A stretch of 33,618 nt of DNA, taken from assembly GCA_946481025.1 (NCBI GenBank), contig CAMLNA010000037.1, forward strand, positions 1-33,618, read 5' to 3'. How positions within the stretch are numbered: position 1 is the stretch's first letter; the number at the start of each line of letters is the position of its first letter. A program made the translations under genes and the position numbers. The stretch is from an uncultured Rivibacter sp. GTDB taxonomy: Bacteria > Pseudomonadota > Gammaproteobacteria > Burkholderiales > Burkholderiaceae. Under the pieces are notes generated by a model. That model searched no databases and was not told the DNA's origin. It worked only from the letters and a program-made list of their open reading frames with translations. Positions 9,452-25,328 of this stretch are shown in pieces.

Positions 9452-10618
9452 ATGTCGGCACCTCCATCACTCACACCGCCTCCGGACCCACCGGCAGGAC
9501 CGGCGGCCGGGCATTGGGACGTCGCAAAGTGGCTGATCCCATCGGTCGGGGCGCTGTTCATCATCGTGGGCTACGTCGCCAAGCGTGCGCACTACGCCTA
9601 CCTCGGATTCAGCCCGGGTCTCCTGGAGCCGAACCAGTACATCGCCACCGCTGCCGACTTCTTCCGCTACCTGCTGAGACTGCCGGTTGGCGGCGTGGGC
9701 GCCTGGAGGCACGCACTCACGGACGTGGCGCACCTATTGTCGGTAGTTCCAGCGCTGCTGTTGTTGGCCGCCTGCCTAGTCTGGCAATGGAAGGCCCGTA
9801 ATTTCAAGCCAGGCACCACGGACTGCCGGCGGCGGCTGGACTTCTTCTTCCTCGCGCTGATCGTGGTCACGATCCTGCGGCTCGTAGCCCTGGATGCCCC
9901 CGTCGGCAAGCTGGAAGGTTCACTCATCGCCGTGGCGGAGGTGACGGCTGCGGAAGACATGCCGTCGGCGGAGTCACGCAACCTGATCGAGGCCCGGCTC
10001 CGAATCGGCCAAGCGAGCGATAGCAGTGTGGAAAAGTGGGCGTCAAGCCGAGCCCTGATGCTTTGGGCCGCGGTCCGCTGTGCCCGGCATTCCGCCGTCT
10101 TGATCGCCGCACCCGTCGGTGCAGACACGCTGTGCAGGGACCATTCGGTGACCCATGCCATGGTGGACGGGGAGGGGCTTGCCCATTTGCTGATGGTTCT
10201 GGTGATCGTGGTGATCGCATGGCTGATCCTCCGAGCGGACTCAAGGCGTGCCCGAGTTCTTGTCGCCTGGTTGTCGATCTTCTCGTGTATCTCGATGGCC
10301 GCAACGTACGGCAAGCTGGGGCACTCGCTCACTTACGAGTTCGTTGAAATCGCCCTGGAGAGTTCCATGGACGCAACCGATAAGAGCTCGGACGCCTCGA
10401 AACTTCTGCACGGCGTCGTGCTCCACGCCGACGGTGACTGGACTACCGTCGCCCGGTCCCAGGTGCGGGCCGGATGCTTCGGCCACATCGAGATCCTGAG
10501 GGTCTCGAACTCGCAGATTCTCTGGCAGCGCGACATCTTTAACACCGATCTCGTGTTCTGGAGCGTGGCCAAGACATTCGACCGTTGCGTGTCGAACAAG
10601 CAGAAGCCTCGGGGGTAA
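9452..10618 (+). CDS. Multi-pass inner-membrane protein of unknown function
   Basis: This 388-aa protein has no family I recognise. Predicted membrane segments lie at about 27-43, 92-111, 129-147, 244-261 and 267-285. A soluble region at ~150-240 lies between the third and fourth segments, and a ~100-residue soluble tail follows. The N-terminal 20 residues are proline-rich. The start at 9452 is the first ATG in frame; another ATG at 9439 is out of frame. The gene lies 156 bp after the DUF4325 gene and ends 6 bp before the next gene. This tight spacing suggests co-transcription with the secreted protein downstream, possibly as a membrane/periplasm pair. Confidence 0.72.
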   Translation: MSAPPSLTPPPDPPAGPAAGHWDVAKWLIPSVGALFIIVGYVAKRAHYAYLGFSPGLLEPNQYIATAADFFRYLLRLPVGGVGAWRHALTDVAHLLSVVPALLLLAACLVWQWKARNFKPGTTDCRRRLDFFFLALIVVTILRLVALDAPVGKLEGSLIAVAEVTAAEDMPSAESRNLIEARLRIGQASDSSVEKWASSRALMLWAAVRCARHSAVLIAAPVGADTLCRDHSVTHAMVDGEGLAHLLMVLVIVVIAWLILRADSRRARVLVAWLSIFSCISMAATYGKLGHSLTYEFVEIALESSMDATDKSSDASKLLHGVVLHADGDWTTVARSQVRAGCFGHIEILRVSNSQILWQRDIFNTDLVFWSVAKTFDRCVSNKQKPRG

Positions 10619-10624
10619 GTCGAG

Positions 10625-11506
10625 ATGAACGTCTTGTGCAACTTGCGCCGCACGACCACCCGCACGCAGGTGGCGGGCGTTCAGATGGGGTTCTTGCGAC
10701 GATTTCTCTGCGCATCGGCGCTCGCGACAGTAGCTAGCGGCGTCCATGCGCAGGTTCCCAAGAGCAGGCTTGCATCTCCGCCGGAAGGCAAGCCAGACGT
10801 CTCTGTGATCACGCCGGCCACGGTGTTCCTGAAAGAGGCCGTCCCGATTTCTGCACGCCTCGAGCCGGTCGTCGTGCACTCCGGCGCAACGCCGGCCGCA
10901 CGCGCAGCGCGCAAGCAGCTGAAGCAGGTTCGAATGTTCCGACTCCCTGTAGGGAAGGACCGGCCCGATCCGCATCTCAGTTTCGAGGATTGCGACATCT
11001 ATGTAACGTCGGTCATCCCCGTCCCTGCTGCGGTTCCAGGCGATCCAGACGAAATTTCGCTCGGTGCCTTCAGGGACCTGGAATGGTTGGACCCAGACCC
11101 GGTTCGAAACGTAGTCAGGCCAGGCCGCTGGCTCGTGGTCATGGAGCAGTACGAAGACACGTCGAACGTGTTTCGACTTAAGCAGAACTCCAGAGAAACC
11201 TACTTCTCCGGCGGATGGGTTCTGATTCTGCTCGGCGTGGCCGGGCGGCAGTACACGCCGGAGGACATCATGCGGGCAGTCGCGAACATGCTTACGTTCA
11301 AGGATGTGGAAGCCGAGGCTCGGATCAACAACTCGACGCGGACTTGTCACGTGGCCAAGGCGACGACCATAGCCGACGCAGGCGTGCAGGGAGTAGAGCT
11401 GGTTGCTTGCCTACCCCCGGAAGGAGATGCCAGGCAGGGCGAGGACACTGGTCTGCTCCCACAGGCCGCACCCGCTGCACAGCCTCCGCTCGTCGGCGCG
11501 AGCTGA
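10625..11506 (+). CDS. Secreted protein of unknown function
   Basis: The frame encodes 293 aa from the ATG at 10625, 6 bp after the membrane-protein gene. A typical signal peptide begins only at residue 21 (MGFLRRFLCASALATVASGV, ATG at 10685), so the true start may be 10685. The mature part has a few cysteines, a region rich in short beta-like stretches (RPGRWLVVMEQYEDTSNVFR) and a low-complexity C-terminus (PQAAPAAQPP). I recognise no family. Immediate coupling to the membrane protein suggests they act together at the envelope. It ends the same-strand run that began at 5938. Confidence 0.68.
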   Translation: MNVLCNLRRTTTRTQVAGVQMGFLRRFLCASALATVASGVHAQVPKSRLASPPEGKPDVSVITPATVFLKEAVPISARLEPVVVHSGATPAARAARKQLKQVRMFRLPVGKDRPDPHLSFEDCDIYVTSVIPVPAAVPGDPDEISLGAFRDLEWLDPDPVRNVVRPGRWLVVMEQYEDTSNVFRLKQNSRETYFSGGWVLILLGVAGRQYTPEDIMRAVANMLTFKDVEAEARINNSTRTCHVAKATTIADAGVQGVELVACLPPEGDARQGEDTGLLPQAAPAAQPPLVGAS

Positions 11507-11817: not shown

Positions 11818-12303
11818 TCAGCTGCCCGACACCCGGTAGTCGTCGTGGCAGGCCTTGCAGGTGCGCGTGAGCCTGCCGTACTGCGCGCGCACCGCTGCTG
11901 CGTCACCGGCCGCGGCCACGCGGGCCAGTTCGTTCGCTTCGGTGCTGAACGCCGCGGCGTACTCGCCGACCTTCGAGCCGTCGGCAAACAGCGTGGGCTT
12001 CACCGTGGTGTCGCGCCAGCCCTTGCCGGTTTCGGTGCCGGGCACGAACAGCGAGCCCAGGCCCGAGTTGGCCAGCGCGGCGATGGTGTTGGCGGCCTTC
12101 ACCACTTCTTCCTTGTCGTAGCGGCCGTCGAGCGAGGCCTTGATGCGGCCCGAGTTCCAGCCGATCACCTGGTAGGCGGACTGGCGCCACTTGATCAGCT
12201 GCTCGGGCTTGGGCGCCTGTTGCGCCCAGGTGGCCAGGGAGGCGGCCAGCACGGTGATCGCAAGCGCGGGGGCGGCGAATTTCTTCTTCAGCATGGGTTT
12301 CAT
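11818..12303 (-). CDS. Cytochrome c' family protein (secreted, mono-haem)
   Basis: This 161-aa periplasmic c-type cytochrome has an N-terminal signal peptide (MLKKKFAAPALAITVLAASLATWAQ) and a single haem motif CKACH (149-153) near the C-terminus. That arrangement is characteristic of the cytochrome c'/c-556 four-helix fold, as are KWRQSAYQVIGWN near the mature start and the short tail after the haem site. The start is the ATG at 12303; an in-frame ATG three codons later is possible. It is the last of four minus-strand genes, 28 bp after the SMP-30-like gene. It probably transfers electrons or binds a small gas for the cluster; the partner is unknown. A related but shorter paralogue is at 18396-18773. 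Confidence 0.9.
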   Translation of the reverse strand: MKPMLKKKFAAPALAITVLAASLATWAQQAPKPEQLIKWRQSAYQVIGWNSGRIKASLDGRYDKEEVVKAANTIAALANSGLGSLFVPGTETGKGWRDTTVKPTLFADGSKVGEYAAAFSTEANELARVAAAGDAAAVRAQYGRLTRTCKACHDDYRVSGS

Positions 12304-12331
12304 CGTCGGTGGGTGGTGGATGCGGTGTGCG

Positions 12332-13306
12332 TCATTTCGCGCGGCCGTTGAAGCCGGGCGTCAGCGCGGTGATGCGCCAGGCCGAGCCGCGGCCCACGGC
12401 GTAGAGCGTGCGCTTGTCTGCGCCGGCGAAGGCGATGTTCTGCGGCGCCTTGGGCAGCGGCACGATGCCGAGCGCGGCGCCTTTTTCGTCGAACACCTGG
12501 ATGCCGGCGGTGGAGGCCACGTACAGGCGGCCGAGGGCGTCCACCGCCAGGCCGTCCGCCCCGCTGCTCGGGCCGTTGTCGGTCTGCCGCCAGCCTTCGA
12601 GCCTGGCGAAATTGCGGCGCGCGCCCACCGTGCCGTCGGCGGCGATGTCGAAGGCCAGCACGTGTTCGCCCGCGGTGTTGGCCACGTAGAGCACCTTCTC
12701 GTCGGGGCTGAGGGTGATGCCGTTGGGCCGCTCGATGTCGGCCGCCAGCCGCTGCAACGCACCCGACGGCGTGATGCGGTAGACCGCCGGCCTCGCCACC
12801 TGGGTGGGCACCGGCTGGTCGGGGCGGCGCGGCGCACCGGAGTCGGTGAAGTACACCGTGCCGTCCTTCGCCACCACCAGGTCGTTGGGACGGCCGAAGG
12901 GCAGGCCTTCGAACTGATCGGCCAGCACGCGGGCGCGCCCGGCGGGGTGCACGATGCCCACGCGCGGCTGCAGCACCTGCACCGCATAGAGGTCGCCGTT
13001 GGCGGCAAGGCCCAGGCCGTTGGAGCCGTTGCTGTTGTCGAGGAAGGTGGAGGTGCTGCCGTCGGCCGCGATGCGCGTGATGCGGTTGGCCGGCGTCTCG
13101 GTGAAGAGCAGGCTGCCGTCGGCCAGGGCCACCGGCCCTTCGGTGCCGTTGAAGCCCTCCTTGATGAGTTCGATCGGCGTGCCGGCCGAGAACACGCCGG
13201 CGATGCCCGGTGTGAGCGTGGCGGCGGCCGGCTTGTCCTGTGCGAAGGCCGCCGCGGCGGCGAGGGCGAGCGCGCAGGCGCTGAAGCTGCTTTTGAGGGG
13301 TCTCAT
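12332..13306 (-). CDS. Secreted SMP-30/gluconolactonase-like beta-propeller protein
   Basis: This 324-aa protein has a signal peptide ending near AAAAFAQ and repeated propeller blades (GPVALADGSLLFTE, PNDLVVAKDGTVYFTDSG, RPNGITLSPDEKVLYVANT, GADGLAVDALGRLYVAS). E56, N195 and D251 occupy the positions expected for the divalent-metal ligands of SMP-30 lactonases, with N141 a likely substrate contact. The site therefore looks intact, and the protein may open a sugar-type or other lactone in the periplasm. It lies 20 bp after the peroxiredoxin gene in the same operon. Whether the substrate is a lactone is unknown, since many family members have undetermined activity. Confidence 0.9.
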   Translation of the reverse strand: MRPLKSSFSACALALAAAAAFAQDKPAAATLTPGIAGVFSAGTPIELIKEGFNGTEGPVALADGSLLFTETPANRITRIAADGSTSTFLDNSNGSNGLGLAANGDLYAVQVLQPRVGIVHPAGRARVLADQFEGLPFGRPNDLVVAKDGTVYFTDSGAPRRPDQPVPTQVARPAVYRITPSGALQRLAADIERPNGITLSPDEKVLYVANTAGEHVLAFDIAADGTVGARRNFARLEGWRQTDNGPSSGADGLAVDALGRLYVASTAGIQVFDEKGAALGIVPLPKAPQNIAFAGADKRTLYAVGRGSAWRITALTPGFNGRAK

Positions 13307-13326
13307 GATGGGTACGGGTGGTCGGT

Positions 13327-13929
13327 TCAGGGCTTGCGGGCGGCGGCGAGCTTGCGCACGGCCTCGAGCGCCTGCTGCACGTTGAGGTCGGGCGCCACGC
13401 CGCCGATGGTCTGCGCGATGCGGCCGTCGGGCGTGACGATGAAGGTGGTGCGCTCGGCGCGGCCGTGGTCGATGTCTCGCCCGCGCGTGTCCTTGCGGCC
13501 GGCGAGCGCGTCGGCGACCCTGAGGTCGTAGGCCTTCGCGATCGCGCCGCCCACGTCGGAGGCCACGGGCAGCTTGCCCGCGCAGTAGAGCGGGTCGGCC
13601 GAGAACTCGTTGAGCCGCGCAATGCTGTCGAGCGACACGCCGACGATGGAGGCGCCGGCGGCGGCGAACTTGTCGGCGTTCTCGGCGAAGCTGTGCGCCT
13701 GGATGTTGCAGCCGCCGGTGAAGGCCGAGGGGTAGAAGTACACGACCACCGGCCCCTTGCGCAGGGCGTCCGTCAGTGTGTAGGCGAAGGCCTTGCCGGC
13801 CAGCGAGGCCTGTGCCTTGAAGTCGGGCGCGGCGTCGCCTGCCTTCAGCGCGGCTGTCGCGGGGGCCGCCATGGCGGCTGCCACCAGCGCGGCCATCAGC
13901 CGTCTTGCATTTGCCGGGTAACGGATCAT
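13327..13929 (-). CDS. Exported peroxiredoxin (AhpC/TSA, PrxQ/BCP-like)
   Basis: This 200-aa thiol peroxidase uses a peroxidatic cysteine. The motif YFYPSAFTGGC places Cys74 in the PxxxT(x)xC active site, and Cys116 (DPLYCAGKLP) is a candidate resolving cysteine. The N-terminus has a signal peptide (RLMAALVAAAMAAPATA), so the protein should act in the periplasm, whereas most PrxQ proteins are cytosolic. The ATG at 13929 follows AGGAGG by about 11 nt; the frame extends further upstream but overlaps the receptor gene. It sits 35 bp after the TonB-dependent receptor, which suggests a role against peroxide formed by the cluster's chemistry. That last point is inference. Confidence 0.9.
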   Translation of the reverse strand: MIRYPANARRLMAALVAAAMAAPATAALKAGDAAPDFKAQASLAGKAFAYTLTDALRKGPVVVYFYPSAFTGGCNIQAHSFAENADKFAAAGASIVGVSLDSIARLNEFSADPLYCAGKLPVASDVGGAIAKAYDLRVADALAGRKDTRGRDIDHGRAERTTFIVTPDGRIAQTIGGVAPDLNVQQALEAVRKLAAARKP

Positions 13930-13964
13930 CGGTACAGGTCCCTCCTGGGTTGATGGGCGGCGCC

Positions 13965-16721
13965 TCAGAGCCGGCCCGTGAATACGACGCTCACCGTGCG
14001 CGGGATCGCGGGCGTGTAGCTGTTCCATGTCTGGCTGCGCGGCGTGTCGTCGTCGAACAGGTTCGTGACGACCAGGCTCACGTCGAAGCCCTTGTTGCGC
14101 CTGCCCAGGCCGACGGCCCAGTCCACCAGCACGTTCTTCCTGATCCACGAGTAGCTCGACAGCGAGTTGTCGGAATAGAAGCCGCTGGTCGCCGCCACGT
14201 TGGCGCTGGTGTGGAACTCCTGGTCGCCGAACACCGGGTAGCGGTAGTCGGCGCCAACGTTGAAGGTGTACTTCGGCGCGCCGGCCAGCGGCTGCCCGGA
14301 GATGTCGCGGTACGGCGATGCGCCGGCATAGCCGTTTTCCACCGGCTGCGCTGCGTTGGGGAACTCCTTGTAGATCGCGCGGTTGTAGGCCCCGGAGAAG
14401 CGCAGGGTGAGGTTGCGGATGCCCGCGTACACGCCGTCCACCTCCAGGCCGGAGACCTGCACCTTCGGTACGTTGCCGGTGGCCGAGGTGTAGGTGAGCA
14501 CGCCGCTTTGTTCGGTGGTGTATTCGTCGAGGATGCGCACGGACTGCTGGTAGTCCTTGATGCGCGTGAGGAACACGTCGGCGTTGAGGACCAGCGTCTT
14601 GTCGAGCAGCGCCGACTTGAAGCCGAGTTCGAAGGACGTGGTCTTTTCGGCCTTCACCGGCGTGGAGCGCCCATTGACGAACTGCGAGATGCCGGCCTTT
14701 TCGCCGTACTGCAGCGAGGCGTAGGCCGTGAGGTCGGGGTTGATCTTGTAGCTCGGGCTCAGCACGAAGGCGGGCTGCGTGTCCTTGTAGGGCTCGGCCT
14801 CGGCCTGGTGGAACAGCACGCCGATCTGTGCGGCGCGAATCGCCTTGGCGTCGGCCACCTGCCGGCGTTGTGCATCGCTGAGGCTGTTGTAGGCCTCACC
14901 CGGTGTCGCCGTGGGGGCCACGCCGAAGTAGCGTTGCGCCACCTGGTCGGCCAGGCCCAGCTGGGCCGCGGTGTTGCCGGCCGCCAGCGCGCCGAGGGCG
15001 TCGGAAGCGAAGCCGCCGAGGTTCACGTTGCCCACGGCCACCGGGTTCAACTCGGGCGCATTGCCGTGGCTGCGGATGGCCGAGCGGCCCGAATTGCGGC
15101 GGTCTTCGCGGGTGAGGCGCAAGCCGGTGGTCAGCGTGAGAGGCTCGCTCAGGTGCCAGTTGGCCTGCCCGAAGCCGGCCAGGCTGTCGTTGCGGATGTC
15201 CTGCACCCCGGCCGGCGAGTTGAACGACATGCTCAGGTTGGCCAGCGAGTTCAGCATCAGCAGGCGGCCGGCCGCGTCGGCGTCGAGCCGGCCGTATTGC
15301 GCATTGCTGGCGAACCATGCGCCCGCGTCGTTGCCCCACAGGCGCTGGTATTCGGCGCTGTTGTGCACGCGAATGAAGTACAGCCCTCCCTGGTAGTCGA
15401 CGAAGCCGCCCAGCGGCGAGGTGATGCGCAGCTCCTGGCTGAACTGCTTGTAGTCGTTCCAGAAGCCGCCGGAGTTGCGGTTCACGTCGAACGGGGTGCC
15501 TTCGTCGTTGACCGCATTGAAGTGGTAGTCCTTGTGGGCGGTGATGGAGGTCAGCGTGTGGCCGTCGGCCAGCTTCCAGTTCAGCTCGGCGGCCGCGCCG
15601 CGGCTGCCGGTGACCAGCGGGCGAGCGCCGTCGTTGTTGACCGAGCGTCCGTCAGGGCCGCCGTAGAGGTAGTCGCCCACCGCGAAGCCGGTGTTCTGGG
15701 TGAACCAGCGGCGCGCGAGCCGTACCTCGTTGGTGACCGAGGTGTTCGGCGTGCCGTTGGAGTAGGTGCCGGGCGTGGGCGTGTTGATGGTGCGGCCGTT
15801 GGTGGCTTCGCCCGCGCGCGGCTGCAGGTCCACCGCGATGCGTGCGTTGAAGTCCGGCGTCGGCGTGAAGAGGAACTGCACGCGGCCCGACACCCGGTCG
15901 GTGTTGGTGTAGGTGACGTCGCGGTTGTAGCGGTTGACCACGTCGCCGCGCTGCTTGCTCACCGAGAAGGTGCCGCGCCAGGCCAGCAGGTCGTCGATCA
16001 CCGGGCCGCCGGCGGCCAGCGTGCCGGTGAAGCCGTCGCGGTCGCGGAAGGCGAGCGAGTAGTCGGCGGAAGGCGTGAACGACGGGCGGCGCGTGGTGAT
16101 GTTGACCACGCCCATGCTGGTGTTCTTGCCCAGCAGCGTGCCCTGCGGACCGCGGGTCACTTCCACCGCCTCGATGTCGGTGAAGTCGAAGCTGGAGGTG
16201 AGCGCGTTGTAGGCGAAGTTCACGCCGTCGACGATGGTGCCGACGCTCGGGTCCTGCGCTTCGGTCTGGCCGATCTTGCCGACGCCGCGGATCGACAGGC
16301 TGCTGGTGCGCTGGTTGCCCTGGTTCCACGACACGTTGCCCAGTCGCCTGGTGATGGCGCCGATGTCGTAGGCGTCGAGCCGCGACAGCTCGTTGCCGGT
16401 GACCACCGAGATCGACAGCGGCACGTCCTGCAGCTTCTCGATCCGGTTGCGGCTGCGCACGACCACGGCATCGAGCGCGGGGGCCTGTTCCTGCTGATCC
16501 TGCGGCTGCTGTGCGGCGGGCCCGGCCGGTTGTGACGCGGCGGCTGCCGGCGGCTCGGGTTGGGCCTGTGCTTGCGCCGCCGAGACACCGAACAGCGCGA
16601 TGCCGGCCACGATGGCCGAGACGGCTGGCAACCGGAATGGAACGGGCTGCTGCAGCTTCGTGCGGGGATGACGTTGCGCCTTTCGTCGAAGGGCTCGGGT
16701 GTGACTCACAGGCTCTCTCAC
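13965..16721 (-). CDS. TonB-dependent outer-membrane receptor
   Basis: This 918-aa outer-membrane beta-barrel with an N-terminal plug imports a ligand using TonB energy. The signal peptide region is ~30-52, a TonB-box-like LDAVVVRS lies at ~83-90, and the plug runs from VPLSISVVTGNEL through DFTDIEAVEVTRGPQGTLLGKN, the classic plug motif. The barrel ends with IPRTVSVVFTGRL, ending in Leu rather than the usual Phe. There is no N-terminal STN signalling domain, and no sigma/anti-sigma pair is adjacent. The start is a GTG at 16721 within an AGAGAGAG tract; a second GTG four codons on is possible. It is the first gene of an operon with peroxiredoxin, SMP-30-like and cytochrome c' genes, divergent from the rhodanese-like gene. 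The ligand is unknown. Confidence 0.94.
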   Translation of the reverse strand: MREPVSHTRALRRKAQRHPRTKLQQPVPFRLPAVSAIVAGIALFGVSAAQAQAQPEPPAAAASQPAGPAAQQPQDQQEQAPALDAVVVRSRNRIEKLQDVPLSISVVTGNELSRLDAYDIGAITRRLGNVSWNQGNQRTSSLSIRGVGKIGQTEAQDPSVGTIVDGVNFAYNALTSSFDFTDIEAVEVTRGPQGTLLGKNTSMGVVNITTRRPSFTPSADYSLAFRDRDGFTGTLAAGGPVIDDLLAWRGTFSVSKQRGDVVNRYNRDVTYTNTDRVSGRVQFLFTPTPDFNARIAVDLQPRAGEATNGRTINTPTPGTYSNGTPNTSVTNEVRLARRWFTQNTGFAVGDYLYGGPDGRSVNNDGARPLVTGSRGAAAELNWKLADGHTLTSITAHKDYHFNAVNDEGTPFDVNRNSGGFWNDYKQFSQELRITSPLGGFVDYQGGLYFIRVHNSAEYQRLWGNDAGAWFASNAQYGRLDADAAGRLLMLNSLANLSMSFNSPAGVQDIRNDSLAGFGQANWHLSEPLTLTTGLRLTREDRRNSGRSAIRSHGNAPELNPVAVGNVNLGGFASDALGALAAGNTAAQLGLADQVAQRYFGVAPTATPGEAYNSLSDAQRRQVADAKAIRAAQIGVLFHQAEAEPYKDTQPAFVLSPSYKINPDLTAYASLQYGEKAGISQFVNGRSTPVKAEKTTSFELGFKSALLDKTLVLNADVFLTRIKDYQQSVRILDEYTTEQSGVLTYTSATGNVPKVQVSGLEVDGVYAGIRNLTLRFSGAYNRAIYKEFPNAAQPVENGYAGASPYRDISGQPLAGAPKYTFNVGADYRYPVFGDQEFHTSANVAATSGFYSDNSLSSYSWIRKNVLVDWAVGLGRRNKGFDVSLVVTNLFDDDTPRSQTWNSYTPAIPRTVSVVFTGRL

Positions 16722-16874
16722 TCTCTCTTGATCGTTGTGCGGGTGACGGGGAAACCGTTCGCAATGCAGAGCCCGTGCCCATGGCTAGCAGCATTGCTTC
16801 TAAGCACATGCGAGCGGCGAGACACAGGGGTCGGCAGCGGTATTCGAGAGGTGCACAGGCACAGAAAGGAGAAG

Positions 16875-16952
16875 CGGCCGCGCTGCTGCACGTGCGGTGA
16901 AGGGCTGCCGGGGCTGCACGGCGGCATGGCTGCACCGGCCGCGCTGCTGCAC
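16875..16952. repeat. 17-nt direct repeat with clustered CTGCAC boxes
   Basis: CGGCCGCGCTGCTGCAC occurs at 16875-16891 and again at 16936-16952. The embedded CTGCAC is also present at 16914-16919 and 16930-16935, with a further copy at 17045-17050. This makes five same-strand boxes in ~165 bp of a divergent promoter region, consistent with a multi-site operator. The function is inferred. Confidence 0.55.
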
Positions 16953-16965
16953 TTGCAGCAGCGCG
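16940..16965. promoter_or_regulatory. Perfect 11-bp hairpin/inverted repeat (possible operator or attenuator)
   Basis: CGCGCTGCTGC (16940-16950) pairs perfectly with GCAGCAGCGCG (16955-16965) across a 4-nt ACTT loop. It overlaps the second copy of the direct repeat. No T run follows, so it is not a standard terminator. A dimeric operator or RNA stem in the 5' leader of either divergent gene is possible. Confidence 0.5.
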
Positions 16966-17094
16966 CGTGCAGGGCCTGTCGCGCAGGCAGCAGGCCGCGA
17001 TGTCCAGGCCGGCTTTTTTGCCCCACGGGCCACTGGCACGAATGCTGCACCCGGATGCGCCGGCTTCCATGAACGACTCCACCAGCACATCAAC

Positions 17095-17655
17095 ATGAAA
17101 CGCAGATCCCTTCATCGCCTCGCGCTCATGCTTGCGCTTGCCGCGGGCGCCACGCACAGCGGGGCACAGCAGCCTTCGTCTGCGGCACCGGCAGCCCGGC
17201 AACCCGCCGCGCAGGCGTGGAAATACAAGACCAGGCGCCTCAACCGCGCGGAGGTCGACGCGCTGCTCGCGCAGCCCGAGACGCTGCTCGTGCTCGACGT
17301 GCGACGCCCCGACGAACTCATCAAGTACGGCAGCTTCCCGGTCTTCCTGAGCGTGCAGAACCGCGACCTCGAGAAGTACGTGGCCTACCTGCCGAAGGAC
17401 CGCACCATCCTCACCGTGTCGAACCATGCGAACCGCGCAGGCGCGGCCGGCGACCTGCTGGCGGCCAGGGGATTCAAGGTGGCGGGCGCCACCGGCTCGG
17501 AAGACTACGAACAGGAAGGCGGCAAGGCAGTGGCTCACATCCAGCCACCCCGCCTCGTGCAGCGGCTTCCGCTGCGCAGTGACCACGAGCACCACGACCT
17601 CCGCCCCGGCCGCAACACCCATGGCCGGACCCGTGCCCCAGCGCTAGTCCACTGA
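17095..17655 (+). CDS. Secreted rhodanese-fold protein lacking the catalytic cysteine
   Basis: This 186-aa protein has a signal peptide (RRSLHRLALMLALAAGATHSGA). It has the rhodanese pattern: LLVLDVRRPDEL (64-75) and the active-loop equivalent ILTVSNHANRAGAAGDLLAARG (105-126). Sulfurtransferases have Cys where this protein has Ser109, and the whole protein contains no cysteine, so thiosulfate:cyanide sulfurtransferase activity is unlikely. A binding or structural role in the periplasm is more probable. The ATG at 17095 begins the signal peptide; the frame is open further upstream but without plausible coding. The last ~35 residues (after HIQPP) are rich in His/Arg and look unlike the family, so a late frameshift is possible. 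It is divergent from the receptor operon and convergent with the cytochrome c4-like gene. Confidence 0.8.
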   Translation: MKRRSLHRLALMLALAAGATHSGAQQPSSAAPAARQPAAQAWKYKTRRLNRAEVDALLAQPETLLVLDVRRPDELIKYGSFPVFLSVQNRDLEKYVAYLPKDRTILTVSNHANRAGAAGDLLAARGFKVAGATGSEDYEQEGGKAVAHIQPPRLVQRLPLRSDHEHHDLRPGRNTHGRTRAPALVH

Positions 17656-17679
17656 GTCGGACGCCGGCACGGCGCGGGC

Positions 17680-18393
17680 TCAGCGCTGCGCCGCCAGGTA
17701 GTGCGCCAACGCGTCGATGTCGGCGTCGCTCAGGCTGCGCGCGGCTTCCTTCATCGCCGCGTCGTTCTTGCGCCAGCCGCTGCGCCACTGCAGCAGTTGC
17801 TGTTCGAGATAGCGCCAACCCTGGCCGCCGATGACGGGCGCCAGCGGCCGGGCGCCCGTGCCGGCGCGGCCGCCGTCGCCGTGGCAGCTTGCGCAGGCCG
17901 GGATGCCGCGTGCCGCATCGCCTTGTGCGTAGAGCGTGCGGCCGGCCGTGGAGTCGGCCTTCGTTTCTTCGCCCTGCATGCGGGGCCGTGAGGCGAACCA
18001 GGCCACGATGTCGCGCAGGTCGGCCTCCTCGACATTGCGCACTGCCACCAGCATCAGGTCGTCCTTGCGCGCGCCGCTCTTGAAGTCGCGCAGCTGCTTG
18101 TGCAGGTATTCGGGGTGCTGCCCGGCCAGCTTGGGGGCCCGAGCTTCAGTCGCACCGGCGCCGGCATGGGCAACGCCGTGGCCCTCGACCCCATGGCATT
18201 CGACGCAACGTTCGGCGTCGGCCTTCTCACGGCCGGCTTCGGCGTTGCCGCCGGCCGCTGCCGGCGCGGCAGCGGCCGTGCGGGGCGCCGTCGGCCGCTC
18301 CCTGTCGGCCTGCGCTGCACTGTCGGCCGAAGCGGCCAGCAGGAGGCAGGCGCTGGCGATGCCGGCCAGGGCACGGGCTGGGTTGAGCGTCAT
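17680..18393 (-). CDS. Di-haem cytochrome c4-like protein
   Basis: This 237-aa periplasmic cytochrome has two haem c sites, CVECH (63-67) and CASCH (167-171). They lie in two similar halves, each ending in a KSGARKDDLM / RSGWRKNDAAMK-type segment and an axial-ligand helix (DLRDIVAWFASR, DIDALAHYLAAQR). This is the duplicated cytochrome c4 architecture. The ATG at 18393 has AAGGAG 5 nt upstream, within the end of the previous gene, and is 2 bp after its stop, so the two are coupled. A GTG two codons earlier is less likely. A signal peptide is present. It is the last gene of the minus-strand operon from 22759 and probably carries electrons from the cluster to a terminal oxidase. Confidence 0.92.
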   Translation of the reverse strand: MTLNPARALAGIASACLLLAASADSAAQADRERPTAPRTAAAAPAAAGGNAEAGREKADAERCVECHGVEGHGVAHAGAGATEARAPKLAGQHPEYLHKQLRDFKSGARKDDLMLVAVRNVEEADLRDIVAWFASRPRMQGEETKADSTAGRTLYAQGDAARGIPACASCHGDGGRAGTGARPLAPVIGGQGWRYLEQQLLQWRSGWRKNDAAMKEAARSLSDADIDALAHYLAAQR

Positions 18394-18395
18394 GC

Positions 18396-18773
18396 TCACT
18401 CCTTCTTGTAGAAGGTGTGGCAGGTGCGGCAGGTGCGCGACAGGTCGGTGGCCGCGTCGGTGGCGGCCGTGAAGTCGCCCGAGCTCACCGAGCTGATGAT
18501 CTGCGTGGCGAGGCCGCGGCTCTTCTTGGACAGCTCCACCGCATTGACGGCGTCGCCGCGCTGGACGAAGTGGGCCTCGACCTCCGCAAACAGGGTGTCG
18601 AGGTCCTTTGCGTCGGCGATGGCCGCCTTGCCGTCACGCAGCGCGATGTTGGACGCGAGGCTCTTGTTGCTGTCCTCGATGTTCTGCATGAGTTCCATGC
18701 CGAGCTCGGCCGCGGCCGGCACGGCACCGGCGGCCGTCAACAGCACGGCCATCGTGAGTACTGCCTTGCGCAT
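18396..18773 (-). CDS. Small cytochrome c'-like protein
   Basis: This 125-aa exported protein has a signal peptide (MRKAVLTMAVLLTAAGAVPAAA) and a C-terminal haem motif CRTCH (115-119) followed by only FYKKE. The helical body is mostly free of other cysteines. The arrangement is that of a short cytochrome c'/c-556-type four-helix cytochrome. I chose the ATG at 18773 because the signal peptide starts there; an upstream in-frame ATG would add 16 residues from the REP-like element. The stop is 2 bp before the cytochrome c4-like start, whose Shine-Dalgarno lies inside this gene's last codons. It is a shorter paralogue of the cytochrome at 11818-12303. Confidence 0.87.
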   Translation of the reverse strand: MRKAVLTMAVLLTAAGAVPAAAELGMELMQNIEDSNKSLASNIALRDGKAAIADAKDLDTLFAEVEAHFVQRGDAVNAVELSKKSRGLATQIISSVSSGDFTAATDAATDLSRTCRTCHTFYKKE

Positions 18774-18816
18774 TGGTTGAAACGAGTACCTGCTGCTGTT
18801 GGGAAGCCGGAATGCA

Positions 18817-18913
18817 TTCACCGCGGAGGCGCGGAGAGCACTGAGTGAACGCGGAGAACACCAAGGTTGAATTCCTCCGCGAACCTCCGTGCTCTCCGCG
18901 CCTGCGTGGTGAA
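18817..18913. repeat. REP-like imperfect palindromic element
   Basis: The arms 18817-18840 and 18890-18913 are inverted repeats matching at 22 of 24 positions (core GGCGCGGAGAGCA / TGCTCTCCGCGCC). An inner pair with CGCGGAG/CTCCGCG is also visible. The element fills the gap between the DUF1501 gene and the cytochrome c' gene, inside an otherwise tight operon. It resembles dispersed palindromes common between genes in betaproteobacteria and may stabilise the upstream mRNA or attenuate downstream expression. Confidence 0.8.
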
Positions 18914-18929
18914 CAGTTCTGAATGGGCC

Positions 18930-20399
18930 TCAGGCGGCGAGCAGGTCCTTGACCACCTTGCCGTACACCACCGTCGGCCGCTCCGAACGGCCGTTGTTGA
19001 GGTAGGTGGTCTTCAGGTGATCGAGCCCCAGCAGGTGCAGCACGGTGGCGTGCAGGTCGTAGGTGTCGACCGCGGTGTCCTTGTCGGCCACCTGCAGGCC
19101 GATCTCGTCGGTGCCGCCATGGGTGTAGCCCGCCTTGATGCCGCCGCCGGCCACCCATTGGGTGTAGCCCCAGGGGTTGTGGTCGCGGCCCGATCCGCTT
19201 TCGCCCCACGGCGTGCGGCTGAACTCGGAGGTCCACACCACCAGCGTGCTGTCCAGCAGGCCGCGCGACTTCAGGTCGGCCAGCAGGCCGGCGATCGGCT
19301 TGTCGACCATCCTGGCCATGAGGCCGTGGTTGTCGTCGAGGTCGTTGTGCGCGTCCCAGCTGCGGCGGTCGTTGTCGGAAACGCCTTCGGGGTGGCCCGA
19401 GACCACCTGCACGAAACGCACGCCGCGCTCCACCAGGCGGCGCGCACGCAGCAGCACCTTGCCATAGCTTTCGCTGGTCTTGTCGTCCAGGCCGTAGAGC
19501 TTCTTCGTGGCGTCGGTCTCCTTGCCGAGGTCCACCGCGTCGGGCGCGGAGGCCTGCATCTGCTCGGCCAGTTCGTAGGCCTTCACCCGCGCGCGCAGCT
19601 CGCTGTCGTTGGGGTATCGGGCCGCGCCCATCTGGTTCAGGTGCTTCAGCAGGTCGAGCTGGGCGCGCTGCTGGCCCTCGGTGCGCAGCTCGGGCCGCTC
19701 GAGGTAGAGGATGGGCGACTCGCCCGGGCGGAAGGCGGTGCCCTGGTACACGGCGGGCAGGAAGCCCGAGTTCCAGTTCTGCGAGCCGGCGCTGGGCTCG
19801 CGATCGCTGTTGTAGAGCACCACGTAGGGCGGCAGCTTCGGGTTGGCCGAGCCCAGCGCATAGCTCACCCAGGCGCCCAGCGACGGCCGGCCCGGGTTCA
19901 GGTCGCCGGTGTTGAGCTTCAGGATCGAGATGTCGTGGGTGGCGCCAACGGTCACGCTGGACTTGATGAAGGCCAGCTTGTCGGCATGCTCGGCGAGGTG
20001 GGGCAGCAGGTTCGAGAACCAGGCGCCGCTTTCGCCGTGTTGCTTCCAGGTGCGGGTGTTCGACACCCACAGTTTGTTCACGCCGCCTTGCGTGCTGGTC
20101 TTGATGCCCTTCAAGAAGGACGCCGGCACGCCCTGGCCCGCGAGCTTCACCAGCTCCGGCTTGTAGTCGTAGAGGTCGAGCGTGCTGGGCGCGCCGTTCT
20201 GATGCAGCCAGATGACCGACTTGATCCTGGCCGGGAAGTGCGGCTGCTTCGGCGCGAGCGGGTCGACCAGGTCGGCGGCAGTGGCCACCGAGAAGAGGCC
20301 CAGGCCCGGCACCAGACCTGACAGCGCAACGCCCACGCCGCCTTGTGCCGCGGCGTCGAGGAACGCGCGGCGCGAATGATGATGATCGTGATGGCTCAT
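18930..20399 (-). CDS. DUF1501 family protein, Tat-exported
   Basis: This 489-aa protein belongs to the DUF1501 family (alkaline-phosphatase/sulfatase-like fold), whose reaction is not established. A twin-arginine signal (SRRAFL, 9-14) indicates folded export, often a sign of a bound cofactor or metal. Family landmarks are WLHQNGAPSTLDLYDYKP (where many members have GG-P-SQ), LNTGDLNPGRPSLGAWVSY, SEFSRTP and GRDHNP, then VAGGGIKAGYTHGGTDEIG. The ATG at 20399 starts a His-rich leader (MSHHDHHHSRR) and has AAGGA about 11 nt upstream. It is 20 bp after the DUF1549/DUF1553 gene. These two families are typically paired in Planctomycetes, which supports a joint function. Confidence 0.92.
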   Translation of the reverse strand: MSHHDHHHSRRAFLDAAAQGGVGVALSGLVPGLGLFSVATAADLVDPLAPKQPHFPARIKSVIWLHQNGAPSTLDLYDYKPELVKLAGQGVPASFLKGIKTSTQGGVNKLWVSNTRTWKQHGESGAWFSNLLPHLAEHADKLAFIKSSVTVGATHDISILKLNTGDLNPGRPSLGAWVSYALGSANPKLPPYVVLYNSDREPSAGSQNWNSGFLPAVYQGTAFRPGESPILYLERPELRTEGQQRAQLDLLKHLNQMGAARYPNDSELRARVKAYELAEQMQASAPDAVDLGKETDATKKLYGLDDKTSESYGKVLLRARRLVERGVRFVQVVSGHPEGVSDNDRRSWDAHNDLDDNHGLMARMVDKPIAGLLADLKSRGLLDSTLVVWTSEFSRTPWGESGSGRDHNPWGYTQWVAGGGIKAGYTHGGTDEIGLQVADKDTAVDTYDLHATVLHLLGLDHLKTTYLNNGRSERPTVVYGKVVKDLLAA

Positions 20400-20419
20400 G
20401 ACGTGTTGTCCTTGGTTGT

Positions 20420-22759
20420 TCAGAAGCGGTAGGCGAAGTCGTTGGAGTTGGCGACCGTGTGGACGAGGTCCACGAAGGCCGCGGCGCGCAGCGGGTTGGC
20501 CGGCGCGGCATCTGCCTTCACGCCGGTGGGCACCGCCACCTCGAACCGGCCGTTCGAGGCCGGGCTCGCCAACTTGGCCGCGATGGTCTTCTCCTGCTGG
20601 TTGAGGAAGCCCTTCAGCGCGGTCTTTTCGGTGGGCGTGGGCTTGCGCGCGAACAGCACTTCGTACAGCCGGTCGAGCTGGGACGACTCGTCCCTGCCGG
20701 CCTCGTTGATCACGCGGCCGGCCAGCGCCTGCGACCACGCGAAGGTGATGTCGCTGTTGAACAGCGTGAGCGCCTGCAGCGGCGTGGTCGTGACGTTGCG
20801 CTTGTGGTGCGGCTGCGCCGGATTGGCCGGGTCGAAGTTCACCGTGAGCGGGTAGGGGACGCTGCGGCGCACGAAGGTGTAGATGCTGCGGCGGCGTGTC
20901 TCCTCCTCGTTGCGCGGCGCCTGCCACAGGTTGCCGGCGTTGAGCTGCGCCGGCACCGGCGGAAACACCGCCGGGCCGCCCACCTTGTCGACCAGCTGGC
21001 CCGAGGCGTAGAGCAGCGAGTCGCGGATCTCCTCGGCCTCCAGGCGCTTGCGGGGGTAGACGGCGAGCAGCTTGTTGTCGGGGTCCACCTTCAGCACGTC
21101 GGCACGTTCGGCCGACGACTGCCGGTACACGCTGGACAGCAGGATCTCGCGGTGCAGCCTCTTCACGCTCCAGCCGTTGCCGGTGAAGCTGGCGGCCAGG
21201 TGGTCGAGCAGCTCGGGATGGGTGGGCTTCGTGCCGGCGCGGCCGAAGTCCTGCACCGTGCTCACGATGCCCTTGTCGAAGTACTGGCTCCACACGCGGT
21301 TGACGTACACCCGTGCAGTCAGCGGGTTCTGCTCGCTGGCCAGCCAGTTGGCCAATGCCGTGCGGCGGCCCGAGGTCCGGACACCGGGCTCCACTCTGGG
21401 CTGCGTTCCACCGGCCAGCCACAGCGCCGGGATGCCGGGCTGCACTTCTTCGGTGGGCCGCTCGTGGATGCCGCCGAAGCGCACGAAGGTCGGCGGCACC
21501 TCGCGGCCGAGTTCAGTCGCGGCGGTGAAGTTGCCGGTCACGCCGGTGGCCTTGGGCCGCTGGCTGTCGAACTTGTTCAGCTCTGCGGTGAGCTTCTGGT
21601 AGTCCTTCCACTTCTCGACGATCTCGGGACTGTGTGCCGGGAAGGTCGGGTCTTCGGCTGCCAGGCGCAGGTAGGCCTGCGCTGCCTGCTGGTCGGTGCT
21701 CACATGCTTGTGTCGCCAGTTGACCCAGCGGTCGAGCGCGGTCCATTCGGCCTCGGGCTTGAACAGCGATTCCCGTGTGTCGGTGAGGTAGCGCTCCTTC
21801 TGGTACTTGATGCCCGCTTCCGTCACCGTGGCCAGGATCGCGCGCTGCTGGTCGCGGATCGCCTTGGTGGCGGCCTGGTAGGCGGCCTGGGCCTTTTCGT
21901 ATTCAGGGTCGACCGGCGCCTTCTCCTTGAGTGGCACGCGCTCGTCGAACGCGGTGTTGGCAAAGAAGGCCTGCAGCTGGAAGTATTCCTTCTGGCTCAC
22001 GCGGTCGGCCTTGTGGTTGTGGCAGCGCGCGCAACCCACGGTGGAAGCCAGCAGCGCCTCGCCCACGAGATCGGTCATGTCGGTCTCGATCTGGTACTTG
22101 CGCTGCACCATGTCGCGCGAGTTGCTGTTGTCGGGGTAGCCGGCCAGAAAGCCGGTGGCGATGCGCGCCTCCTGGCTGTCGGGCCAGAGTTCATCGCCGG
22201 CGATCTGCTCCTTGATGAAGCGGTCGAACGGCTTGTCCTTGTTGAACGCGTCGATCACGTAGTCGCGGTAGCGGTAGTTGTTGGGCCGCGTGTTGTCGTT
22301 CTGGAAGCCCGAGCTGTCGGCATAGCGCGCGAGGTCCAGCCAGCGGCGCGCCTGGCGCTCGCCGAAGTGATGAGACGCGAGCAGCCGGTCCACCAGCTTT
22401 TCGTGCGTGTTGGGCGACTTGTCATTGACGAAGGCGTGCACTTCCTCGGGCGTGGGCAGCAGGCCCCAGGCGTCGAGGGTGGCGCGGCGGATGTAGGCCG
22501 CGCGTCCGGCGTCGGGCGAGGGCTTCAGCCCCTTGGCTTCGAGCTGCGCGAGCACGAAGCTGTCGATGGGCGAGCGCACCCATTGCTTCTGCTTCACGGC
22601 CGGCGGCTCGGGAGGCTTCACCGGCTGATAGGGCGACCACGCGCGGGCAGCCGGGGCCGTGGCGGCCTGCTTGCGGGGCGCTGTCTGCGCGCCCTCGGCC
22701 GCGAGCGCCGCTGCGGCCGCCAGGCCGAGCCAGATCGCGAGGTACAAGTTCTTCTTCAT
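20420..22759 (-). CDS. DUF1549/DUF1553 (PSD1-type) protein with haem-binding motif
   Basis: This 779-aa exported protein has a signal peptide (MKKNLYLAIWLGLAAAAALAAEG). The N-terminal half is DUF1549 (SPIDSFVLAQLEAKGL, RRATLDAWGLLPTPEEV, RWLDLARYADSSGFQND), including a c-type haem motif CARCH (243-247) with NHKADRVSQKEYFQL after it. The C-terminal half is DUF1553 (TALANWLASEQNPLTARVYVNR, ETRRRSIYTFVRRSVPYP, LQALTLFNSD). It lacks the separate N-terminal planctomycete cytochrome domain found in many relatives. The reaction is unknown, and haem attachment implies a redox step or electron relay. The ATG at 22759 begins the signal peptide; the frame stays open upstream without coding character. 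It is the first gene of the operon with DUF1501 and two cytochromes. Confidence 0.92.
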   Translation of the reverse strand: MKKNLYLAIWLGLAAAAALAAEGAQTAPRKQAATAPAARAWSPYQPVKPPEPPAVKQKQWVRSPIDSFVLAQLEAKGLKPSPDAGRAAYIRRATLDAWGLLPTPEEVHAFVNDKSPNTHEKLVDRLLASHHFGERQARRWLDLARYADSSGFQNDNTRPNNYRYRDYVIDAFNKDKPFDRFIKEQIAGDELWPDSQEARIATGFLAGYPDNSNSRDMVQRKYQIETDMTDLVGEALLASTVGCARCHNHKADRVSQKEYFQLQAFFANTAFDERVPLKEKAPVDPEYEKAQAAYQAATKAIRDQQRAILATVTEAGIKYQKERYLTDTRESLFKPEAEWTALDRWVNWRHKHVSTDQQAAQAYLRLAAEDPTFPAHSPEIVEKWKDYQKLTAELNKFDSQRPKATGVTGNFTAATELGREVPPTFVRFGGIHERPTEEVQPGIPALWLAGGTQPRVEPGVRTSGRRTALANWLASEQNPLTARVYVNRVWSQYFDKGIVSTVQDFGRAGTKPTHPELLDHLAASFTGNGWSVKRLHREILLSSVYRQSSAERADVLKVDPDNKLLAVYPRKRLEAEEIRDSLLYASGQLVDKVGGPAVFPPVPAQLNAGNLWQAPRNEEETRRRSIYTFVRRSVPYPLTVNFDPANPAQPHHKRNVTTTPLQALTLFNSDITFAWSQALAGRVINEAGRDESSQLDRLYEVLFARKPTPTEKTALKGFLNQQEKTIAAKLASPASNGRFEVAVPTGVKADAAPANPLRAAAFVDLVHTVANSNDFAYRF

Positions 22760-23110
22760 GGTCGGACCCCCGTCACGATGAGGTTGTTGTTCAAAGGCAG
22801 CTGTGTCTGATGCGTCACGCCTCTCCTTTCGCAAGCCCCGCGCCAGCGCACGGTCCATCGCATGCCTGCCTGCAGCGCTGCCAAGTCCTTGATTCGCCGG
22901 CATATTTCCAAGGCGCGCTTGGTCATTCGGAATTCGACTTGCTGCATTGCCAGCAAGCGCAGCGCGTCGTGCTGTGAAGCGCGCATCGGGTTTCAGGGGG
23001 CGAGGCCCGCGGCCCGTGCGGGGGCGGGGCTCACGCATGCGCGCCAGGTGGCGTCGATGGAGCTCGGCCGAGAGAAGCGGCTGGGCAGCGCTCGGTGGGA
23101 ACCGTGCGCG
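22760..23110. other. Intergenic region upstream of the PSD1 operon
   Basis: About 350 bp between the ends of the GGDEF gene and the start of the PSD1 operon. It must carry the operon promoter. A 76-codon minus-strand frame (22756-22986) exists but has no recognisable motif. No sigma54-type GG-N10-GC match of quality and no AT-rich Fur-like box was seen. Confidence 0.5.
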
Positions 23111-24331
23111 TCAGGACGTGGTGAGCCCCAGCGGCCTGCTGGCGCCGAAGACGGCTTCGCCGTCTTCCTGGCTGCCGGCGATGACGGCGCGGCTGCGGCC
23201 CTGGCGCTTGGCCTCGTAGAGCGCCTCGTCGGCGCGCCGCAACGCCTGGGAGAGCGATTCGCCCGGCAGGGCCTGCACCGCGCCGAAGCTCAGGCTCAGC
23301 ACCGGGTAGGGCTGGTGCAGGCATTCGTCTTCGATCTGCGCCACCATGCGGTCGGCCACGTGGAGTGCCGCGTTCACGTCGGTCTCGGGCAGCAGCACGA
23401 CGAATTCGTCGCCGCCCAGGCGGCCCACCACGTCGCCGGTGCGCAGCAGCTGCCGCGCGCAGCGGGCCACCAGCCGCAGGGCGTCGTCTCCGGCGGCATG
23501 GCCGTGCGAGTCGTTCACCTGCTTGAAATGATCGATGTCGAACAGCATCAGCGACGCAGAGCCCGGCGCGCTCATCGCGAGGGCCCGCGACGCGAGCTCT
23601 TCGAAGTGGCGGCGGTTGGGCACTTCGGTGAGCATGTCCATGTCGGCCAGCACGCGCAGCTGCCGCTGCGACTCGCGCAGGTTGTCGCCGGTGCGCTCGT
23701 AGGTGAGCACGAGCGCGAGGTACAGCAGGCACAGCGTGGTGAGCACCATGGGCAGCACCATGCCCGGCGTGGCCGGCTGGGGCGCAATGGCGCCGGACCA
23801 CACCAGTGCCAGATGCGCCGCCTGCACCGAGGCGTTCGCCAGCAGCAGCAGCCGCAGCGCCTGCAGCGTCGGCCGGCGCGAGCGCGCCGGCAGCCGGCCC
23901 AGCACCCAGGCGGCATGGCAGAACACGAGCGCCATGCCGAACGAGAACGCGGTGACGCGGGGCAGCAGCGTGCCGGGCCCCGCCCAGGCGACCAGCCAGC
24001 CGGCGGTGACGGCGGCCAGCAGCAGCAGGTCGGTGAGGACCGAGCCGGGCAGGGCGCTGCGGGCATGGAAGCGCCGCATGCCGACCAGCAGCGTGACCGG
24101 CCATTGCAGCAACAGCGCAATGGACAGCGGCAGCACGGCAGGCCAGGCGTCGCGGGCCAGCTGCAGGCCGACCCCGACGCTGCCCATCCACTGGGCGGCG
24201 GTCCACCACCAGAAGCCCCGGTAGATGTGCTGGGTGCAGCCGAACAGGGTCATGATGCCCGCGACCACCAGCATCACGACCGTGCTCACGCCCATCAGCG
24301 TGGGCAGGTGGAGGTCGGCAAGCGGGGGCAT
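23111..24331 (-). CDS. Membrane-bound diguanylate cyclase (GGDEF)
   Basis: This 406-aa protein makes cyclic di-GMP from two GTP. The N-terminal ~210 residues hold about six hydrophobic segments (TLMGVSTVVMLVVAGIMTLF through VLPMVLTTLCLLYLALVLTY), a membrane sensor module of unknown ligand. The GGDEF domain follows from ~227, with DMLTEVPNRRHFEE, LMLFDIDHFKQVND and an intact active site GGDEF (306-310). An RTGD motif at 297-300, five residues before GGDEF, is a complete inhibitory I-site, so product inhibition is expected. I chose the ATG at 24331, which gives the normal short N-terminus. No EAL domain is present. The gene appears to be a single transcription unit unrelated to the redox cluster. 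Confidence 0.93.
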   Translation of the reverse strand: MPPLADLHLPTLMGVSTVVMLVVAGIMTLFGCTQHIYRGFWWWTAAQWMGSVGVGLQLARDAWPAVLPLSIALLLQWPVTLLVGMRRFHARSALPGSVLTDLLLLAAVTAGWLVAWAGPGTLLPRVTAFSFGMALVFCHAAWVLGRLPARSRRPTLQALRLLLLANASVQAAHLALVWSGAIAPQPATPGMVLPMVLTTLCLLYLALVLTYERTGDNLRESQRQLRVLADMDMLTEVPNRRHFEELASRALAMSAPGSASLMLFDIDHFKQVNDSHGHAAGDDALRLVARCARQLLRTGDVVGRLGGDEFVVLLPETDVNAALHVADRMVAQIEDECLHQPYPVLSLSFGAVQALPGESLSQALRRADEALYEAKRQGRSRAVIAGSQEDGEAVFGASRPLGLTTS

Positions 24332-24515
24332 GGCGGCAGGCGGGATGGAACGAGGGGGTGACTCGGCGAAGTGAGGCGCATTCTCCCCAGGGCCCGTGCC
24401 GCCTTCACTCCCCCAAAAGGCGGCTTCCGCCACGCACCCCCGGGGGGGCGGGCGGCCTGCGCCGATTCGTTACCATCGGCGCCCTCTGGATCAACGCTCC
24501 CGCAGGAGAGACGAC

Positions 24516-25328
24516 ATGGCGATGGATGTAGTGGACTACGAGATCAAGGGCTCCGAGATGCAGTTCGTGGAGGTCGAGCTCGACCCGGGCGAGGCGGCCA
24601 TCGGCGAAGCCGGCAGCATGATGTTCATGGACGCCGGCATCGACATGGACTCGGTGTTCGGCGACGGCTCCAAGAACCAGGGCGGCTTCTTCGGCAAGCT
24701 GCTGGGCGCCGGCAAGCGCCTGATCACCGGCGAGTCGCTGTTCACCACCGTCTACACCAACGCCGGCCAGGGCAAGAAGCGGGTGGCGTTTGCCGCCCCC
24801 TATCCCGGCAAGATCCTGCCGATGGACCTGCGGCAGATGGGCGGCATGCTGCTGTGCCAGAAGGACGCCTTCCTGTGCGCGGCGCGCGGCGTGAGCCTGG
24901 GCATCGCCTTCCAGCAGAAGCTCTCGGTCGGCTTCTTCGGCGGCGAGGGTTTCATCATGCAGAAGCTCGAGGGCGACGGCCTGGCCTTCGTGCATGCGGG
25001 CGGCACCGTGGTCAAGCGCGAGCTGCAGCCCGGCCAGACGCTGCTGGTCGACACCGGCTGTGTGGTGGCCTACACGCCCAACGTGAACTTCGAGATCCAG
25101 TACGTCGGCAAGATCAAGACCGCGCTGTTCGGCGGCGAGGGCCTGTTCTTCGCCAAGTTGACCGGACCCGGCACGGTGTGGCTGCAAAGCTTGCCGTTCT
25201 CGCGGCTGGCTTCGCGCGTCTTTGCCGCGGCGCCGCAGATGGGCGGCTCGCGTGAAGAGGGCTCGGTGCTCGGCGGTTTCGGCGCCGGCGGCCTGCTGGG
25301 CGGCGTGCTCGGCGGCGACGACGAGTGA
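24516..25328 (+). CDS. TIGR00266/AIM24 family protein
   Basis: This 270-aa protein belongs to the TIGR00266 (AIM24) family, beta-rich proteins of unknown biochemical role, related by fold to mitochondrial AIM24. The family features are [19 protein letters not shown] near the N-terminus, [11 protein letters not shown], repeated GGEG turns ([41 protein letters not shown]) and a glycine-rich C-terminus ([15 protein letters not shown]). The ATG at 24516 is preceded by CAGGAGAG at suitable spacing; the frame is open upstream without coding character. No signal peptide is seen. It is monocistronic and followed by a strong hairpin. Confidence 0.92.

Follow-up and report, generated by a model that had tools for sequence, protein, structure and literature searches.

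We examined a 33,618-nucleotide stretch of DNA from an uncultured Rivibacter sp. of the Burkholderiales (contig CAMLNA010000037.1 of assembly GCA_946481025.1; the whole stretch is referred to here as the window), in which genes for a PSCyt2/PSD1 protein (DUF1549 and DUF1553) and a DUF1501 protein stand in a cluster with genes for a TonB-dependent receptor, cytochromes c, an exported peroxiredoxin and a rhodanese-like protein. The parts of this cluster travel together across Proteobacteria, its separate transcription units have sigma-54 promoter motifs in common, and a sigma-54 activator and, in relatives only, sulfur-starvation genes lie near PSD1 far more often than expected by chance. The cluster is probably one sigma-54-controlled periplasmic system that obtains sulfur from an organic source under sulfur shortage (we put the probability at about 0.6). 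Its link to sulfur, which the genomic setting suggests, is the firmer part of this reading and slightly more probable than the whole; the chemistry envisaged, hydrolysis plus oxidation, is a guess that should be regarded as doubtful.

Searching genomes with an alignment of PSD1 gave at least 80 loci, 31 proteobacterial and 49 from other phyla (labelled by phylum from sequence-record titles), to which all part counts apply; parts were counted by comparing the window proteins with the open reading frames of the loci, using bit-score thresholds that we set. The proteobacterial loci include those of Zoogloea, Derxia, Pseudoduganella, Methylocapsa, Methylosinus, Methylocystis, Methylobacter, Solimonas and Cellvibrio. 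Across the 31 listed, DUF1501 was present in every locus, the short cytochrome c' in 27, the peroxiredoxin in 26, the di-haem cytochrome and a related TonB receptor in 20 each, the rhodanese-like protein in 18, b561 in 15, the second cytochrome c' in 14, the activator and a secreted DUF1554-like protein in 13 each, and the SMP-30-like protein in nine. DUF1501 was likewise found in 43 of the 49 loci listed for other phyla, and none of the other cluster parts was found in any of these loci, many of which had less flanking DNA. The common order in Proteobacteria is PSD1, DUF1501 and the short cytochrome c', then the di-haem cytochrome and the peroxiredoxin, either of which may come first, and this conserved run often continues with SMP-30, cytochrome c' and the DUF1554-like secreted protein. 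Many relatives have one single run; in the window there are two operons with the receptor and rhodanese-like genes between them. An initial annotation of the window, which proposed a single system, had reasoned that unrelated locations of the two operons in relatives would make this unlikely; their parts are in fact linked, often in one run. The secreted protein itself (in locus L002 at 17179-17913) matched DUF1554 weakly (21.1 bits against a cut-off of 27.5), and its gene, with relatives in 13 of the 31 loci, often stands right after the last cytochrome c' gene. Loci of the methanotrophs Methylocapsa and Methylosinus (L014, L015, L019) combine PSD1, DUF1501 and cytochrome c' genes with rhodanese-like, dienelactone-hydrolase and b561 genes.

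The proteobacterial form of PSD1 is a separate group by sequence identity to the window protein (55–84%, versus 34–44% for other phyla), and the nearest named relatives of the window protein are from the Burkholderiales genera Paucibacter, Piscinibacter, Ideonella and Leptothrix. Its distribution is patchy: PSD1 occurred in four of 300 Burkholderiales genomes, a sample in which genome G002 was the centre rather than a random draw. The view that DUF1501 with PSD1 is characteristic of Planctomycetes was too narrow, as loci were also found in Acidobacteria, Verrucomicrobia, and Alpha-, Beta- and Gammaproteobacteria. Four loci (L001, L006, L007 and L013) have a second, diverged PSD1-DUF1501 pair adjoining the first, and the second PSD1 shares about 55% identity with that of the window in L001, L006 and L007.

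Sigma-54 motifs were sought with a -24/-12 consensus in which the GG/GC core was fixed. The window has one such motif before the PSD1 gene (22830-22845, minus strand) and one before the receptor gene (16765-16780, minus strand), each with two mismatches and a position derived from its offset, as well as one with a single mismatch before the rhodanese-like gene (17034-17049, plus strand). Sites with up to two mismatches were found in 17 of 30 PSD1 upstream regions of 450 bp (L012, with only about 100 bases upstream, was left out); of 3000 windows drawn at random from these loci, 130 had one. Sites with no more than one mismatch numbered 40 in 655 kb (32 loci, including the window), compared with seven in all in one mononucleotide shuffle. 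Of these 40, 33 lay no more than 450 bp ahead of a PSD1 (14), receptor (10) or rhodanese-like (9) gene; one of the remainder preceded a cytochrome c' gene, one a b561 gene, and five had no assigned gene. Common motifs ahead of separate units also ease, at the level of sequence, the doubt raised earlier as to whether the two operons are ever co-expressed. Together with the linkage of the parts, they argue for the single redox system proposed for the periplasm, TonB receptor included, from which the lactonase (SMP-30) would be dropped as a required member, being optional in relatives.

The likely regulator of the cluster is a sigma-54 activator encoded at 1778-2932 (minus strand), the AAA+ domain of which (Sigma54_activat) begins at residue 33 of 384, too near the start for a sensor domain to fit before it. 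It is thus of the SfnR type in the sense of a sigma-54 activator without a sensor domain, a domain that SfnR also lacks. Its best NCBIfam score was for NorR (313.7, under the cut-off of 476), and among 120 listed of 7500 relatives those with names had generic sigma-54 names and no specific identity. Gene distances were assessed in a whole-genome set made up of 27 of the 31 proteobacterial loci (without L011, L013, L020 and L037) together with genomes G039 and G085; coverage was 29 genomes for the activator and encapsulin, 21 for the phosphate-binding protein PstS and 14 for the sulfate-binding protein Sbp. SsuA, covered in 21 genomes, gave many weak matches that enter no count. Of the 29 genomes, 16 had an activator relative no more than 35 kb from PSD1, where 0.64 were expected. 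Where far from PSD1, the activator instead sits approximately 4–6 kb from encapsulin (G006, G313 and G314) or adjoins sulfate-binding genes (L088 and L118).

Sulfur-related genes recur around PSD1 in these relatives. Comparing neighbours de novo brought out the sigma-54 activator and also, though in a smaller number of loci, transport genes of the Ssu and Cys types, and NCBIfam models scored over their cut-offs, in the loci tested, for a family 2A encapsulin shell with cysteine desulfurase cargo (L004, L015) and for the serine O-acetyltransferase EpsC (L004, L009). Encapsulin was detected in 25 of 29 PSD1 genomes versus 29 of the 300 Burkholderiales genomes over the cut-off, and all four PSD1 genomes of that sample were among its 29 encapsulin genomes. 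Within 35 kb of PSD1, encapsulin was found in 11 of 29 genomes (expected 0.52) and the sulfate-binding protein in five of 14 (expected 0.41), compared with one of 21 (expected 0.46) for the phosphate-transport control; this distance was picked after a first look at the data, and 10, 20 and 50 kb were also computed (at 10 kb, encapsulin two of 29 and sulfate-binding protein two of 14). As the genomes are related, P values for linkage serve as guides only. In Sapientia aquatica (L104), DUF1501 is followed, among the recognised genes, by c', c4, peroxiredoxin, dienelactone hydrolase, c', the secreted protein and the activator, and then by genes for a sulfate-binding protein, CysA, rhodanese, EpsC, encapsulin and its desulfurase. 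The distance from PSD1 to encapsulin and its desulfurase is about 4 kb in L015. In Synechococcus, sulfur starvation is reported to induce the encapsulin SrpI (PMC8049743).

Several observations weigh against a role in sulfur acquisition. Apart from the activator, the window itself offers little evidence of a link to sulfur: the SsuA/NMT1-like binding protein (315-1781, minus strand), whose membership in the system is uncertain, passed the Pfam NMT1 cut-off (44.6 bits) and fell under that of SsuA_fam (115.8 bits, cut-off 163.5), and a search with it at 50 bits gave no match in any of the 31 loci. Widening the distance to 50 kb raises the phosphate control as well, to three of 21 genomes (P 0.03), and SrpI knockouts are described as having no growth defect (PMC8049743). 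Across 20 encapsulin-operon regions, a total of four sigma-54 sites turned up, and no recognised gene had one in the 600 bp before it. Because its operons have no such site, encapsulin is treated here as a neighbour rather than a member of the regulon; a common sigma-54 control of cluster and encapsulin was considered and dropped, and linkage alone is claimed.

A further point on that side, the PSD1 relative on a Saccharobesus plasmid (54.7% identity), also speaks for a different substrate. There, genes for PSD1, DUF1501, a TonB receptor and cytochromes b and c lie among those for glycoside hydrolase family 88 (GH88), pectinesterase and pectate lyase, as might be expected of an oxidative route in the periplasm for using carbohydrates or other carbon sources, in which the receptor imports a glycan fragment, PSD1 and DUF1501 act on it, the lactonase opens a sugar lactone and the cytochromes accept electrons; the sulfur genes nearby would then be incidental or secondary. 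Carbohydrate-binding modules reported on some PSCyt proteins of Verrucomicrobia (PMC5615132) fit such a pathway and likewise count against sulfur, and SMP-30, present in nine of 31 loci, would supply the lactonase. However, this glycan setting is known from one distant relative, the sequences and families scanned included no recognised glycoside hydrolase among neighbour families conserved in at least four of the 31 loci and the window, and it is activator, encapsulin and sulfate-binding genes that are enriched near PSD1. We therefore consider a carbon pathway unlikely, at perhaps a third of the weight given to sulfur acquisition.

Two other readings are less probable again. Cytochromes c' bind nitric oxide, an exported peroxiredoxin is encoded in 26 of the 31 loci, and NorR gave the best score for the activator, all of which would suit a response to nitric oxide, peroxide or redox stress, with cytochromes c' and peroxiredoxin detoxifying and PSD1 and DUF1501 repairing damaged envelope material. 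The NorR score, however, is under its cut-off and the activator is without a sensor domain; a TonB receptor with ExbB/ExbD is a better fit for uptake, and antioxidant defences are reportedly induced by sulfur starvation itself (PMC12581299), which makes a dedicated stress response improbable. Uptake of iron, copper or haem, the least probable of the three, finds some encouragement in the TonB-siderophore subfamily being the best NCBIfam match of the receptor (109.8 bits); this match is nevertheless under the cut-off of 223.5, and no siderophore synthesis or iron transporter was recognised among conserved neighbour families, part of the families having been scanned.

All nine genes listed in the initial annotation are present at 11818-22759, and Pfam backs their assignments, seven of them firmly and two, the rhodanese-like protein and the second (short) cytochrome c', with scores under the cut-off. 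The PSCyt2/PSD1 gene (20420-22759, minus strand; PF07583 and PF07587, 266.4 and 308.3 bits, over cut-off) encodes a CxxCH motif at residues 243–247 that is unchanged in 70 of 70 aligned relatives. Next to it is the DUF1501 gene (18930-20399, minus strand; PF07394, 443 bits, cut-off 27), whose product starts with SRRAFL; both arginines are unchanged across 72 aligned sequences, consistent with export by the twin-arginine translocation (Tat) pathway. The structure of this protein is predicted to have an alkaline phosphatase/sulfatase-type fold (mean predicted local distance difference test score, pLDDT, 87.6). Asp349, His351, His407 and His461 are found in 72 of 72 sequences, with Asp or Asn at position 406, a pattern expected of metal ligands, with positions that come from the alignment rather than from a solved site. 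A sulfatase with cysteine-derived formylglycine was ruled out for the window DUF1501, as the protein has no cysteine.

Downstream on the minus strand are genes for the short cytochrome c'-like protein with one CxxCH (18396-18773; 20.7 bits, cut-off 26.5) and a c4-like di-haem cytochrome c with two CxxCH (17680-18399; 62.1 bits). The second operon, also on the minus strand, encodes the TonB-dependent receptor (13965-16721; plug 61.5 bits, barrel 85.9 bits), the exported AhpC-TSA peroxiredoxin (13327-13929; 93.1 bits), the optional SMP-30/gluconolactonase-like protein (12332-13306; SGL/SMP-30, 142 bits) and a cytochrome c' (11818-12303; PF01322, 107.5 bits). Signal peptides of the cluster proteins were assigned by eye. 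The exported rhodanese-like protein (17095-17655, plus strand; 21.1 bits, cut-off 22.2) has a serine-containing loop and no cysteine, which rules out a catalytic rhodanese or classical sulfurtransferase. Among its relatives, 17 of 18 have no cysteine past residue 40 of the frame and 10 of 18 have an SNHxxRAG-type loop (a pattern of our own). To judge from its sequence, the window protein may bind sulfur rather than transfer it.

The same window extends the gene set beyond these nine to the sigma-54 activator and NMT1/SsuA-like genes and, on the plus strand, genes for an ExbB/TolQ-type proton channel subunit (2938-3918; MotA_ExbB, 109.1 bits), an ExbD/TolR-type subunit (3932-4363; ExbD, 94.1 bits) and, by eye, a possible TonB-type proline-rich protein (4781-5536; no Pfam match at E 0.01). 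Between this regulator/ExbBD block and the cytochrome operon is a stretch of lower G+C (5938-11506; approximately 0.60–0.63 versus 0.68–0.70 on either side), which may be an insertion; several of its frames have no Pfam match, and the frame at 8064-8990 has a weak HATPase_c match alone. The right flank (23111-32690) resembles ordinary chromosome, with genes for a GGDEF protein, AIM24, phosphoenolpyruvate carboxylase, HemD/HemX, HemY and tRNA-Arg.

In the mechanism we propose for sulfur acquisition, the TonB receptor, powered by ExbB/ExbD, would import a bulky or scarce organosulfur compound, which DUF1501, with its metal-hydrolase-type fold, and the CxxCH-bearing PSD1 would process in the periplasm by hydrolysis and/or oxidation. 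Electrons would pass from PSD1 to the di-haem cytochrome and cytochrome c', and to b561 as well in many relatives, with the peroxiredoxin coping with peroxide formed on the way, and the sulfite, sulfate or small sulfonate freed could then be taken up via Ssu- or Cys-type transporters. More speculatively still, PSD1 and DUF1501 might constitute a new periplasmic enzyme, coupled to cytochromes, that releases sulfur from complex organic matter and is placed under sigma-54 control in some sulfur-starved Proteobacteria, with the many copies in Planctomycetes, Verrucomicrobia and Acidobacteria performing related chemistry on polymers that are sulfated or modified in some other way.

PSD1 and DUF1501 belong to known, abundant families without known function (PSD1 and PSCyt2 domains are reported 41 times each in Rhodopirellula baltica; PMC2754498), and the proteobacterial cluster offers them a concrete, testable setting with candidates for its regulator and promoters, sulfur shortage as a likely inducer, and named hosts that include Derxia gummosa DSM 723 and Sapientia aquatica SA-152. 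In the available text of literature on these families (PMC5615132, PMC2754498, PMC5888151, PMC4960237, PMC5122149, PMC6653060, PMC6123633; subscription-only papers and preprints fall outside this scope), neither the cluster nor a role in sulfur starvation is described.

Compared with known systems, the nearest likeness is to the PSCyt2/PSD1 and DUF1501 pairs of Planctomycetes, Verrucomicrobia and Acidobacteria, in which the same two families are adjacent and for which no function is known in the text available (PMC5615132, PMC2754498); a DUF1501 module has also been described in bacteria of the Planctomycetes-Verrucomicrobia-Chlamydiae (PVC) group (cited in PMC4960237 and PMC5122149). Unlike the 49 loci of other phyla, the proteobacterial form has cytochromes, peroxiredoxin, receptor and rhodanese-like protein. 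It also has sigma-54 motifs, for which proteobacterial loci and the window were searched. Proteobacterial DUF1800/DUF1501 operons, compared here by their description (PMC5122149), also pair a DUF1501 protein with a twin-arginine start with a protein without known function, but have DUF1800 in place of PSCyt2/PSD1 and are linked with chitin synthase. The window DUF1501 shares the predicted fold of the alkaline phosphatase/sulfatase superfamily and differs by having no cysteine-derived formylglycine. The SrpI family 2A encapsulin with cysteine desulfurase, reported as sulfur-starvation-induced (PMC8049743) and near PSD1 in relatives, by contrast forms a nanocompartment in the cytoplasm, has an operon of its own and is absent from the window. 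The proposed setting also resembles sigma-54/SfnR-dependent sulfone and sulfonate use in Pseudomonas, where a sigma-54 activator operates in a sulfur-starvation context; the enzymes described there are monooxygenases dependent on flavin mononucleotide (FMN) and reduced flavin (PMC8234197), whereas the cluster encodes exported haem- and metal-type proteins and a TonB receptor. If the sulfur role of the cluster is true, a periplasmic haem-protein route would join the known flavin monooxygenase routes for organic sulfur.

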